From: Opitutia bacterium
GTDB taxonomy: Bacteria; Verrucomicrobiota; Verrucomicrobiia; Opitutales; Opitutaceae
Direction: 5' to 3'
Assembly: GCA_016199925.1 (NCBI GenBank)
Contig: JACQFT010000082.1
Location: 1 to 64,000 of the forward strand
Length of the DNA stretch: 64,000 nt
The translations under genes were made by a program, and so were the position numbers. Below, in pieces: positions 9,218-13,647 of the stretch. The notes under the pieces were generated by a model. The model did not search any database. It had not been told where the DNA came from and worked only from the letters and a program-made list of their open reading frames with translations. Positions within the stretch are counted from its first letter, which is position 1. Every line of letters starts with the position of its first letter.

Positions 9218-11314
9218 ATGCCCAAACGCAATTCCTCCAAAAACAACGACCAGCCAGAGCTGCCCTTGGGCGGCGACGAATCGCCGGCCCAAGAGGCTAA
9301 AGGCAAGAGGCCAGAGGCTAGTGCCCCAACCGCTAGTTCTGACTCCTCTCGCCCGGATTCGCCTGAAGTCTCCAGCCCCTCGCCCCTCGCCTCTAGTCCG
9401 GTGCCAGAAGCGCCGCCCAAGCGCATGAAGGGCCAGAAAATTCAAGACGACCCCGCGCCCCTCGCGGCCGCCTACCGCAACTGGTTCCTCGACTACGCCT
9501 CCTACGTCATCCTCGACCGCGCCGTGCCGCACATCGACGACGGCTTGAAGCCTGTGCAGCGCCGCGTCCTCCACACCCTCTGGGACATGGACGACGGCCG
9601 CTTCCACAAAGTCGCCAACGTCGTCGGCGCCACGATGAAACTCCACCCGCACGGCGACGCCTCCATCGGCGCCGCGCTCGTCGCCATCGGCCAGCGCGCG
9701 TGGCTCATCGAGCCGCAGGGCAACTACGGCAACACCCTCACCGGCGACGACGCCGCGGCGCCGCGTTACATCGAGGCGCGCCTCACGAATTTCGCGAAGG
9801 ACGTTCTCTTCAACCCGAAGACGACGACGTGGCAGCTCAGCTACGACGGCCGCAACAAAGAGCCGATCACCCTCCCCGCCAAGTTCCCCGTCGTCCTCCT
9901 CGAGGGCGCCGATGGCATCGCGGTCGGCCTCTCGACGAAAATTCTCCCGCACAACTTCAACGACCTCTGCCGCGCGGCGATCAATCACCTCCAAGGAAAA
10001 ACTTTCCGCATCCTCCCCGACTTCCCCACTGGCGGCACCGCCGACTTCGCGGAATACAACGACGGCGAGCGCGGCGGCAAGGTGAAGGTCCGCGCCAAGA
10101 TCGAGGAGCGCTCCAAATATCTCCTCGCCATCACCGAGCTCCCCTACGGCGTCACCACCGAGTCGCTCATCGAATCCATCCTCGCCGCCAACGCCAAGGG
10201 CAAGATCAAGGTCAAGCACGTCGACGACAACACCGCCGACAAGGTCGAGATCCTCGTCCATCTCCCGCAGGGCTCCGAGCCCGACAAGGTCATCCAGCAG
10301 CTCTACGTCTTTACCAGCTGCCAGGTGCAGCTCAACCCCGCCGCCTGCGTTATCGTCCGCGACCCCACGACCGGCGACGACAAGCCCCACTTCCTCGGCG
10401 TCCGCGACCTCGAGCGCATTTTCATCGAGGAACGCATCTACCGCCTCATCGAGAAATCCAAGACCTGGGAGAGCGTCCTTGCCGAGATCCGCGGCGGCCT
10501 GAAACCATTCCTCAAGCAGCTTAAACGCGACGTGACCGACGACGACATCGTCCGCCTCACCGAGATCCGCATCAAGCGCATCTCCGCCTACAACCGCTTC
10601 CAGGCCGACGAAGCCATGAAGAAGATCGAGGAAGGCATCAAGGAGACGAAGGCCAACCTCCGGAAACTCACCGAGTATGCCGTCGCGTGGTTCGAGATGC
10701 TCCAGGAAAAATACGGCAAGGGCATCAAGCGGAAGACCAGCTACGACGAGATCGAGCAGATCGACGCCTCGGAGGTCGTCTCGGCCAACCAGCGCCTCTA
10801 CGTCAACCGCGAGGACGGCTTCATCGGCCTCAACTGGCGCCAGCACGAGTTCGTCACCGAGTGCACGATCCTCGACAGCGTCCTCACGATCATGCGCGAC
10901 GGTTCGCTCAAGGTCTCAAAGGTGGCCGACAAGATTTTCATGGGCCGCGAAATCCTGCACGTCGCCATCTGGCCGAAGGAAGGCGACACGAATTTCTACA
11001 CGATGATCTATCAGGACGGCGCGACCGGGAAGGCCTTCGCCAAGAAATTCCAGATCGGCGGCCTCAGCCGCGACAAACTCTATCCGCTGGTGAAGTCCGA
11101 GAATTCCCGCGTGGTCTACCTCGAAGTAAGCGCCAAAGAAAAAGACATGCCGAAGAGCGTGCACGTCTCGTTAGACGGCCGCAGCGGCGCAAGAATCCGC
11201 GAACTCGACTTCGATCTGACACCCATCCCGGTCAGCACCCGCACGTCCAAAGGCCTCACCGTCACGAAGTGGAACATCAAAGAAGTGAAGCGAAACGATC
11301 TGGCGCTGAAGTAG
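9218..11314 (+). CDS. parC: DNA topoisomerase IV subunit A / GyrA-like, with low-complexity N-terminal extension
   Basis: DYASYVILDRAVPHIDDGLKPVQRRVLHTLWDM, YGNTLTGDDAAAPRYIEARLT. Confidence 0.93.
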   Translation: MPKRNSSKNNDQPELPLGGDESPAQEAKGKRPEASAPTASSDSSRPDSPEVSSPSPLASSPVPEAPPKRMKGQKIQDDPAPLAAAYRNWFLDYASYVILDRAVPHIDDGLKPVQRRVLHTLWDMDDGRFHKVANVVGATMKLHPHGDASIGAALVAIGQRAWLIEPQGNYGNTLTGDDAAAPRYIEARLTNFAKDVLFNPKTTTWQLSYDGRNKEPITLPAKFPVVLLEGADGIAVGLSTKILPHNFNDLCRAAINHLQGKTFRILPDFPTGGTADFAEYNDGERGGKVKVRAKIEERSKYLLAITELPYGVTTESLIESILAANAKGKIKVKHVDDNTADKVEILVHLPQGSEPDKVIQQLYVFTSCQVQLNPAACVIVRDPTTGDDKPHFLGVRDLERIFIEERIYRLIEKSKTWESVLAEIRGGLKPFLKQLKRDVTDDDIVRLTEIRIKRISAYNRFQADEAMKKIEEGIKETKANLRKLTEYAVAWFEMLQEKYGKGIKRKTSYDEIEQIDASEVVSANQRLYVNREDGFIGLNWRQHEFVTECTILDSVLTIMRDGSLKVSKVADKIFMGREILHVAIWPKEGDTNFYTMIYQDGATGKAFAKKFQIGGLSRDKLYPLVKSENSRVVYLEVSAKEKDMPKSVHVSLDGRSGARIRELDFDLTPIPVSTRTSKGLTVTKWNIKEVKRNDLALK
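9292..9395. repeat. inverted heptamer arrays in the parC 5' coding region: (AGAGGCN)4 at 9292-9319 and (GCCYCTN)-like x5 at 9361-9395
   Basis: AGAGGCT AAAGGCA AGAGGCC AGAGGCT ... GCCTGAA GTCTCCA GCCCCTC GCCCCTC GCCTCTA. Confidence 0.7.
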
Positions 11315-11324
11315 TGCGCATCAG

Positions 11325-11405
11325 GTCCGTTTCGTCCATCCGATCTATCCCCGCGCTCCCGTCCATCGAGTCCCTCTTGGCCATTTCCGCCGCTCTGGCC
11401 TATCA
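11325..11405. repeat. 9-bp-period degenerate repeat array (GTCCATNNN type), nine units
   Basis: GTCCGTTTC GTCCATCCG ATCTATCCC CGCGCTCCC GTCCATCGA GTCCCTCTT GGCCATTTC CGCCGCTCT GGCCTATCA. Confidence 0.75.
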
Positions 11406-11453
11406 TCGCCGCCCCGACCGCACCCGATACAGCCGCTCCGTGAAGCCGCCCTC

Positions 11454-11559
11454 CCGTTGTGACTGAATCCGCCCAACGGGCACCCGGATTCAGCCACCCT
11501 CCGCCTCGCTCCGGGCCAGCGCCTTTGGCGCCGACCATCTCCGCGCGGTGCGCTCCGTC
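11454..11559. repeat. REP-like insertion with two hairpins inside the four-helix-bundle-suffix gene
   Basis: CTGAATCCG...CGGATTCAG stem at 11463-11493 and GGCCAGCGCC TTT GGCGCCGACC stem-loop; separates AAAF from EGGFTERL and shifts frame. Confidence 0.55.
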
Positions 11560-11655
11560 GAAGGCCGCGGCTTGCGCCGCGATCTGGCGGTCCAGCAGCG
11601 CACACGCCACGCCGATCAGGACATGCGCCGCGTTCGCGGCGATCTCGGCATAACG

Positions 11656-11762
11656 CATGGACTTCATGGACGGCATGGACTCCGAGTCGATCTCTACGCT
11701 GCCACGCTGGTCATTTGGTTTCCTTGGTCCATTCGGTCTATTTCGTCCATACGGTCCATTTC
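11656..11762. repeat. inverted 9-bp repeat arrays in the coding linker: (CATGGACNN)3 at 11656-11682 and (GTCYATNNN)4 at 11727-11762
   Basis: CATGGACTT CATGGACGG CATGGACTC ... GTCCATTCG GTCTATTTC GTCCATACG GTCCATTTC. Confidence 0.8.
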
Positions 11763-12275
11763 TGGTTTGCCCCACCCACGCGGCCACTTCTTCAGCGGTG
11801 CGGCAGCGCCGGGCCACGAGCGCCTTCCGGCGCTGATCGTCCTCCGGCCACAGCACGAGCCCGCGTTGCCGCAGGTAGTCTTCGTAGTCCAACTTCAGTT
11901 CCTCCAAACTCGCCCGCGCCACGTTGGTCAGTTTCAGTTCCATTTTCTTCGAGGTGCCGCTGGCCTTGCTGCCCTCGGCGATATTCTGCACGCCGCTGCG
12001 CGCCGCTTGCACCATCTGGTCGTGCGTCCGGCTGCGCGGACTGATGTAGCGGTCACAGAAACGCGCCGTCACATCGAACGCCAGTTGGGCGACCTGAAAA
12101 CTCTTCAGATGCCGGTAGCCGCCATGCACCGGAATCAGCGGCTCGTGCGCCGGCGGCGCGCGCTTTCCAAGATTTGTTTTCTGCGATTCGGGCATGGCCA
12201 AGCAATCAAATGGCGGCCCGTGCAGAAAACTTAGCCGCGCACAGCGCACCAGGCCAAGCGCGAACTTCGTGCATA

Positions 12276-12301
12276 GTCCATTCCGTCTACTGGTCCATTC
12301 C
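12276..12301. repeat. short GTCCAT repeat array upstream of the four-helix-bundle gene
   Basis: GTCCATTCC GTCTACTG GTCCATTCC. Confidence 0.6.
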
Positions 12302-12606
12302 TCCCGCGCGTTGGCCAGGCCAAGCAACCCGTGCTCCGAGCGGCAGGGCGCTCTGCGAAAATCAGCCGGGAGGCCACGGCCCCCACCGCGGGGCAGCGAT
12401 TCCGGTTCGTTCTATTTGACGGATGAGTTCAAGGGCCGAATCAAAAGTTCCGAACGCCAGATGGCCGCAGGCCAGCGTCCGCGAACCCGTTGATCCGCCC
12501 CGCCCGCCTCCGGTTTGCCGGGTTCTATCCGCGTCCCTCCGGGAAATCCGCGGCAAATCGGGCTGCGGCCGGTTGCAACCCCGGCCAACTTGGCTACCGG
12601 GATCGG

Positions 12607-13647
12607 ATGCAGATCGGCATCGACAGTTTTGTGGCGACCGACGCCGACCCCGTGACCGGCGTCGCGCCCAGCCCCGCGCAGCGGATCGCCGACCTCCTCG
12701 AGGAGATCGCGCTGGCCGACGAGGTGGGCCTCGATTTTTTCGGCATCGGCGAACACCACCGCGAAGAGTATCTCGACTCCGCGCCCACCGTCCTCCTCGC
12801 CGCCGCGGCGGCGCGCACCAAGCGCATCCGCCTCACGAGCGCCGTCACCGTGCTGAGCGCGGCGGATCCTGTGCGCGTTTTCCAGGAATTCGCCACCCTC
12901 GACCTGGTCTCGCAGGGCCGCGCCGAAATGATCGTGGGCCGCGGCTCCTTCGTCGAGGCCTTCCCGCTCTTCGGCCTGGAGCTGGACGACTACGACGAGC
13001 TGTTTGCCGAAAAGCTCGGCCTGTTGCTCAAATTGCGCGAGCACACGCACGTGCAGTGGTCGGGCTCGCACCGCCCCGCGCTCACCGGCCAGGGCGTTTT
13101 CCCGCGCCCCTTGCAAAACCCGTTGCCGGTCTGGCTCGGGGTCGGCGGCACGCCGGAATCTTTCGCCCGCGCCGGCACGCTGGGTCTGCCGCTGATGGTC
13201 GCCATCATCGGCGGCGAACCTCACCGCTTCAAACCGCTCATCGACCTCTACCGCCAGGCCGGCGCCCAAGCCGGCCACGCCCCGGCCCGACTCCGCGTCG
13301 GCCTGCATTGTCTCGGCTATGTAGCCGACACAAACCGCCAGGCGGCCGATGAATTTTTTCCCGGCCACGCCCGGGCCTTCACCAAGATCGGCCGGGAGCG
13401 CGGCTGGCCGCCGGTAACTCGCGCCCACTTCGACGCTCTGCTCGGTCCGACCGGTGCGCTGCACGTCGGCGACGCCGAGACGGTCGCGGAAAAAATTCTC
13501 CGCCTGCACCGCGTGCTCGGCGGCGTCGAGCGTTTCGGTTTCCAAATGTCGGTCGCCGCCCTGCCGCACGCCAAGCTCATGCGCGCCATCGAACTCCTCG
13601 GCACCAAGGTCATCCCGCTGCTCCGGCAGAAACTCGCGGCCGTCTGA
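12607..13647 (+). CDS. LLM class flavin-dependent oxidoreductase
   Basis: [14 protein letters not shown]...[53 protein letters not shown]. Confidence 0.9.

Follow-up and report, generated by a model that had tools for sequence, protein, structure and literature searches.

Short tandem repeats in and around the gene of an all-helical protein, with relatives in more than 20 phyla, look like an undescribed system of repeats plus protein, and the DNA analysed here holds one damaged copy of it. This DNA (the window) is a stretch of 64,000 nucleotides from an Opitutia bacterium. The way in which genes and repeats vary together suggests that a protein of the S23/IVP type probably recognizes a short repeated word. 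Its cognate sites would be the arrays that lie inside and beside its own gene, and the fourth helix of its bundle would determine the word. The protein family is already known by name, as the NCBIfam family TIGR04258 (four helix bundle suffix), and that name is silent on arrays. The association of arrays with the protein is apparently new; it is absent from the open-access literature searched, a body that leaves most subscription journals and preprints outside its coverage.

The gene in the window is a damaged, frameshifted copy (Table 1). It exceeds the curated cut-off of the TIGR02436 profile (28 against 24 bits), which bears out the four-helix-bundle identity given to it in an earlier note made from the sequence alone. 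Against TIGR04258 it reaches 27-30 bits, over positions 1-30 of 49 only, and stays below the curated cut-off of 40 because of a 106-bp insert that the earlier note overlooked. Comparison with relatives shows that the suffix ends at ...QAAAF and picks up again 106 bp on, in a different frame, as EGGFTERLYRVRSGRR followed by two stops. An intact orthologue (L058), from an Opitutia groundwater MAG, contains the whole suffix. At positions 10, 13 and 14 of the suffix, the key residues of helix 4, the window copy has V-G-V, the class that is paired with RTGGAC arrays. The gene adjoins parC and is not inside a 23S rRNA gene, and there is no Rfam match in 11000-12700. The window genome has a palindrome-containing element of about 100 bp in two coding sequences: one is the suffix gene, the other an RHS-like frame (L057; G000 C195:43815-43893). 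It looks like a small repeat element capable of inserting into genes.

Table 1. Features of the four-helix-bundle-suffix locus in the window
Feature	Position	Strand	Remarks
Four-helix-bundle-suffix gene, 5' part, helices 1-3 (TIGR02436-like, S23/IVP family)	11763..12195	(-)	start codon 12193-12195; TIGR02436 28 bits; PF05635 26 bits, below cut-off
Linker array, 5' arm: (GTCYATNNN)4 on +, ATGGAC x4 in gene sense	11727..11762	.	chance expectation 0.00; L058 has this arm too
Linker-hairpin loop	11683..11726	.	L058, the orthologue, has a far shorter loop
Linker array, 3' arm: (CATGGACNN)3 on +, GTCCAT x3 in gene sense	11656..11682	.	opposes the other arm GGAC-first
Suffix domain, first part, predicted helix 4 of the bundle	11560..11655	(-)	TIGR04258 positions 1-30; helix assignment via the L058 model
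106-bp insert with palindromic stretches, frame-shifting inside the suffix	11454..11559	.	one other genomic site, C195:43815, is about 73% similar
Displaced suffix end (EGGFTERLYRVRSGRR and two stops), other frame; ancestral stops TGA/TAG at 11405-11400	11400..11453	(-)	matches intact suffix ends of L058 and L025
Downstream array, degenerate GTCCAT units, ancestral stop to parC	11325..11384	.	four imperfect two-unit matches; relatives also have downstream arrays
Upstream array, three degenerate units (GTCCAT, GTCTAC, GTCCAT on +)	12276..12298	.	relatives also have upstream arrays

The arrays of the window are concentrated at this gene. The inner ones lie where the earlier note had placed them, with three ATGGAC units at 11657-11680 and four GTCYAT units at 11727-11759. 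A three-unit pattern with at most one mismatch has three matches in the window, all at the suffix-gene locus, against 0.00 expected (largest shuffle 0). With two units and up to two mismatches there are 14 matches, ten of them in the suffix-gene locus, against 2.1 expected. The outer arrays are weaker than the inner ones, yet they have the same motif. Three units are found upstream at 12276-12298, the last one base out of phase. Downstream, where nine units had been described, the array is real but recognizable only at 11325-11384, as four degenerate pairs. Shuffles and reversed-pattern controls rule out chance composition as the source of the arrays. A search of the 3.79-Mb draft genome for further arrays points to the same gene, as exact GTCCATNNNGTCCAT occurs four times and three of these are at the suffix gene. 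The fourth encodes MDCMDC inside a cytochrome c gene and is a chance match. Dispersed copies of the repeat were not found in the window genome. This genome (3.8 Mb) also has fifteen TIGR02436 four-helix-bundle matches, and the 30 such loci tested from that search are without arrays.

Comparison with the orthologue separates the words from the sequence between them. The orthologue is 79% identical and convergent with parC as in the window, and the two parC genes are 82% identical. In the alignment both linker arms retain the ATGGAC and GTCCAT words, and the differences lie in the 3-nt spacers and the loop. The linker of the orthologue is shorter, and no downstream array is recognizable there when it is aligned to the window. 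Only this relative shares the parC position, and the suffix gene is present in it. No empty site was found at parC: in none of the 11 closest parC-bearing relatives was the window's downstream neighbour found within 1.5 kb of that gene. The earlier note had proposed targeted variation of length and sequence at this locus. Linker length does differ between the orthologues, but the words are kept and the changes fall in the spacers and loop. Across loci, adjacent units agree at 86% at two specificity bases and at 46% in the spacers, and arms mostly have 3-4 units. As judged from these alignments, the contrast between word and spacer is that of conserved sites amid a drifting background.

A structure model predicts the suffix to be the fourth helix of the S23/IVP bundle and places the array-bearing linker as an insertion between helices 3 and 4. 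The AlphaFold model of the orthologue (59 sequences, monomer; pLDDT 90.5, pTM 0.85) has a four-helix-bundle fold. Its predicted helices are at 20-39, 45-67 and 72-99, followed by short linker helices, a long suffix helix at 159-192, and a helix at the C terminus. Of the structures in the PDB it matches 2GSC (Xcc0516) best, with a TM-score of 0.77 normalised to the target. This alignment has 176 columns, the linker gap included, and because it extends across the gap the suffix is read as helix 4. The suffix had been taken for a separate module past the four-helix bundle, a reading that the model does not support. The model has the same fold as S23 or 23S rRNA intervening-sequence proteins (PF05635, TIGR02436; Xcc0516), but the suffix gene is outside rRNA and has an insertion of about 30-100 residues before helix 4, and arrays are absent from 30 ordinary members.

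Arrays accompany the suffix gene across its relatives. TIGR04258 genes are found in 41 of 141 relatives, and intact relatives mostly pass the curated cut-off. A protein search of genome contigs gave at least 564 relatives, the best 80 of which are from more than 20 phyla. Lag analysis at the loci of these best 80 of at least 564 gives two periods. Arrays of period 9 reach 0.76 per kb at the gene and up to 250 bp from it, against 0.034 far away, and those of period 10 at 0.35 against 0.016, about 22-fold denser at the gene than farther off. Periods 7, 8, 11, and 12 show no comparable enrichment at the 80 loci. One fixed scoring rule for strong arrays was applied to all sets of locus segments; it finds them in 90 of 133 suffix-gene segments, in none of 30 around ordinary TIGR02436 genes, and in 6 of 199 far segments, and at least four of those six carry the gene's own word. 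The repeats thus belong to the gene family, as had been supposed, and about one third of the suffix-gene segments are without a strong array at the threshold used here. The suffix gene is present in ten of the 12 relatives with RTGGAC arrays and in 31 of the 129 without them (Fisher p 7e-5, a value that is too small because related genomes are not independent).

The arrays are found upstream of the start, within the linker, and downstream of the stop, and they are built on a few rules. Their words include RTGGAC (period 9), CACGGAC (period 10), GTCNGAC, ATGGGA, AAGGAC/AGGGAC, palindromic units containing GATC or TATAGG, and rarer ones, and a GGAC anchor is common to most of them. CACGGAC is one base longer than RTGGAC, and its period is also one base longer, so the spacer is constant at 3 nt. 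All 62 facing pairs of arms are GGAC-first, most commonly with 4+4 or 3+3 units, and the median loop is 23.5 bp. The inverted arms had been thought able to pair, and the predicted hairpins are indeed stable. Spacers in facing arms are complementary at 34% of positions against 25% when shuffled, and pairing would therefore be mainly through the words. Successive units of period-10 arrays within coding sequence encode different residues, which argues for selection on the nucleic acid. Selection on the linker peptide is ruled out, since these arrays shift frame from unit to unit.

The surroundings of the gene vary. The plasmid collection gave one match (Prevotella nigrescens NZ_CP082843) and there was no phage match. 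No conserved partner gene was found. A ResIII (HsdR-like) gene precedes the suffix gene in three genomes (L061, L068, L078), and in L068 an N6_Mtase/Methylase_S gene also follows it. L065 adjoins RhuM, and L129 adjoins a Schlafen-type helicase. Six suffix proteins (L015, L026, L028, L029, L031, L033), several of them in the GATC array class, are extended at the C terminus by a segment that carries a zinc-ribbon-like CPxC tail.

At the level of sequence, the repeated word tracks the suffix domain rather than helices 1-3. Linker columns encode the arrays, and for this reason the whole-protein tree was set aside and helices 1-3 and the suffix were analysed separately. On the suffix-only tree the CACGGAC class requires two changes, against 14.1 when shuffled. 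On the tree of helices 1-3 it requires 13 against 14.9, which is almost random. At suffix positions 10/13/14, CACGGAC genes have S-N-L or near variants of it (15 of 15; the variants include S-N-V and one D), and 38 of 39 RTGGAC genes are x-[A/G/T]-V-like, with no N at position 13. The one RTGGAC gene that departs from this, L080, has S-N-L residues, and its own linker contains a CACGGAC array of period 10. Other classes pair C-N/S-Q with GTCNGAC, C-H-Q with GATC, TATAGG, and ATGGGA words, and G-R/K-x with AAGGAC/AGGGAC. Paralogues inside a single genome (G159, and likewise G141) have different words, with one word recurring around each gene. The tree of helices 1-3 has few columns; three independent word switches fall on its well-supported branches, and 11 on all branches. 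Because the certain switches and the columns are few, part of the correlation may be due to neighbouring sequence being inherited together.

In some genomes arrays are also found away from the suffix gene. Pattern scans detect arrays in all 31 carrier genomes, mostly a few per genome. Four genomes have many more matches (G142 128, G145 292, G159 328, G165 164; the number of elements is lower, as matches overlap), with 2, 3, 15, and 3 suffix genes, respectively. The dispersed examples fetched are hairpins, most commonly with four units per arm, and their loops are not shared. Among genomes with suffix genes fully listed, CACGGAC arrays are present in all eight that have an S-N-L/V gene (7-328 matches), and the four without such a gene have 0, 0, 3, and 3. 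Every genome with an x-[A/G/T]-V gene has GTGGAC arrays; the five without one have 0, 1, 1, 8, and 131. In both comparisons gene-adjacent matches are counted, and draft genomes may miss genes. The clear exception is G165, with 131 GTGGAC matches and no x-[A/G/T]-V gene found. The suffix genes of G165 and G159 include further classes, with V-E-R, I-S-R, V-T-R, and N-H-R as helix-4 residues, and one of these may explain the 131 matches. RTGGAC arrays are present on four contigs of G042 (98% complete), in which no suffix gene was found.

These patterns are best explained if the protein reads the word. It would be a helical protein of the S23/IVP type, a family characterised by homopentamers, and would probably form a ring of bundles as its relatives do. 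The word would be a GGAC anchor preceded on its 5' side by two to four specificity bases; its units would lie 9 or 10 bp apart, in inverted arms GGAC-first, and helix 4 would carry the determinant of the word that is read. Gene and arrays would form a single cassette that moves between phyla. The word would also have spread, in some genomes, as free-standing intergenic hairpin arrays, where the protein could be a regulator or organiser, or the factor that spreads and keeps them. The sequences themselves show the association of gene and arrays, the two periods, the orientation rule, the correlation of word with helix 4, and the dispersal; physical recognition, DNA rather than RNA as the bound form, and the effect in the cell are inferred. 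A role linked to nucleic acid, suggested before by analogy with Avd, is now far better grounded. It is also possible, as a more tentative extension, that three helix-4 positions of the bundle specify the DNA word and that new paralogues evolve new words. Several non-overlapping pairs of protein and array would then coexist in a genome, spreading as hairpin elements and being widely transferred.

The strongest alternative overlaps with recognition of the word by the protein. The inverted arrays could be a non-autonomous mobile or self-spreading repeat that the protein mobilises or maintains, as RAYT does for REPINs, and this is a somewhat doubtful but substantial possibility. Five genomes (G142, G145, G159, G165, G141) have tens to hundreds of dispersed matches against 2-15 suffix genes, the reversed-pattern control is near zero, GGAC comes first in every two-armed dispersed hairpin that was examined, those of G159 most often have 4+4 units, and related proteins occur across scattered phyla. 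On the other hand the protein is without a catalytic domain, a scan of 30 proteins encoded beside the gene in relatives found no HUH/Y1 or reverse transcriptase, dispersed copies have nothing in common but the core words, with different loops and spacers, and no empty site was found.

An RNA role and simple linkage are weaker. The hairpins could work in mRNA, with the protein regulating its own transcript and others post-transcriptionally. The predicted RNA hairpins are stable (z -2.2 to -8.3) and lie in the reading-frame linker and near gene ends, and S23 relatives are encoded in rRNA intervening sequences, to which the fold is tied (PMC4990558). An RNA helix should better tolerate A to G and C to T changes, but wobble-compatible changes in the word are not in excess (79 vs 84, p 0.75), making this reading unlikely. 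Still less likely is that arrays and suffix are merely inherited together as neighbours while recombination between arrays shuffles helices 1-3, with no recognition needed. The suffix is directly flanked by two arrays and few switches are certain, which would fit; helices 1-3 are also flanked by two arrays, yet they do not track the word, and unlinked dispersed arrays largely match the helix-4 classes of their genome. Targeted diversification akin to a diversity-generating retroelement is very improbable: linker length is variable (32-102 residues in the RTGGAC and CACGGAC classes) and the fold is related to Avd (PMC10053308), but the cores are conserved, ordinary drift accounts for the differences between orthologues, and the scanned neighbours include no reverse transcriptase. 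A neutral simple-repeat background has almost no probability, as some arrays are recent exact duplications (L086, L263) but there are only two periods with a fixed orientation, ordinary four-helix-bundle genes have no arrays, and reversed-pattern controls are near zero.

The locus resembles several known systems in part. Iterons are short tandem sites about one helical turn apart, beside the gene of the presumed binding protein. The suffix gene likewise has tandem short sites beside the gene of a protein presumed to bind them, but there is no replication protein or plasmid context, and the arms are inverted and also inside coding sequence. As in REPIN-RAYT systems, hairpin repeats flank a protein gene and disperse between genes (in some carrier genomes, not in the window genome), and the class of repeat matches that of the protein. 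The differences are an all-helical S23-type bundle, with no HUH/Y1 transposase in it or its scanned neighbours, and iterated words of 6-7 nt with 2-3 nt spacers, present inside the gene as well, instead of one conserved palindrome. The intervening sequence of Coxiella has tandem heptamers upstream of the S23p gene, in numbers that vary among strains, and thus shares repeats upstream of an S23-type gene (PMC4990558). The locus of the window is neither such an intervening sequence nor shown to be a diversity-generating retroelement.

Recognition of the word, if true, would be the first concrete and testable function for the S23/IVP family. To our knowledge these proteins, known since the 1990s, have no assigned function. 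Arrays of this kind go unexplained in the genomes of many phyla. Recognition would also account for a class of dispersed hairpin repeats, and it would provide a natural protein-sequence code, in which the word changes with three helix residues, for study or reuse.
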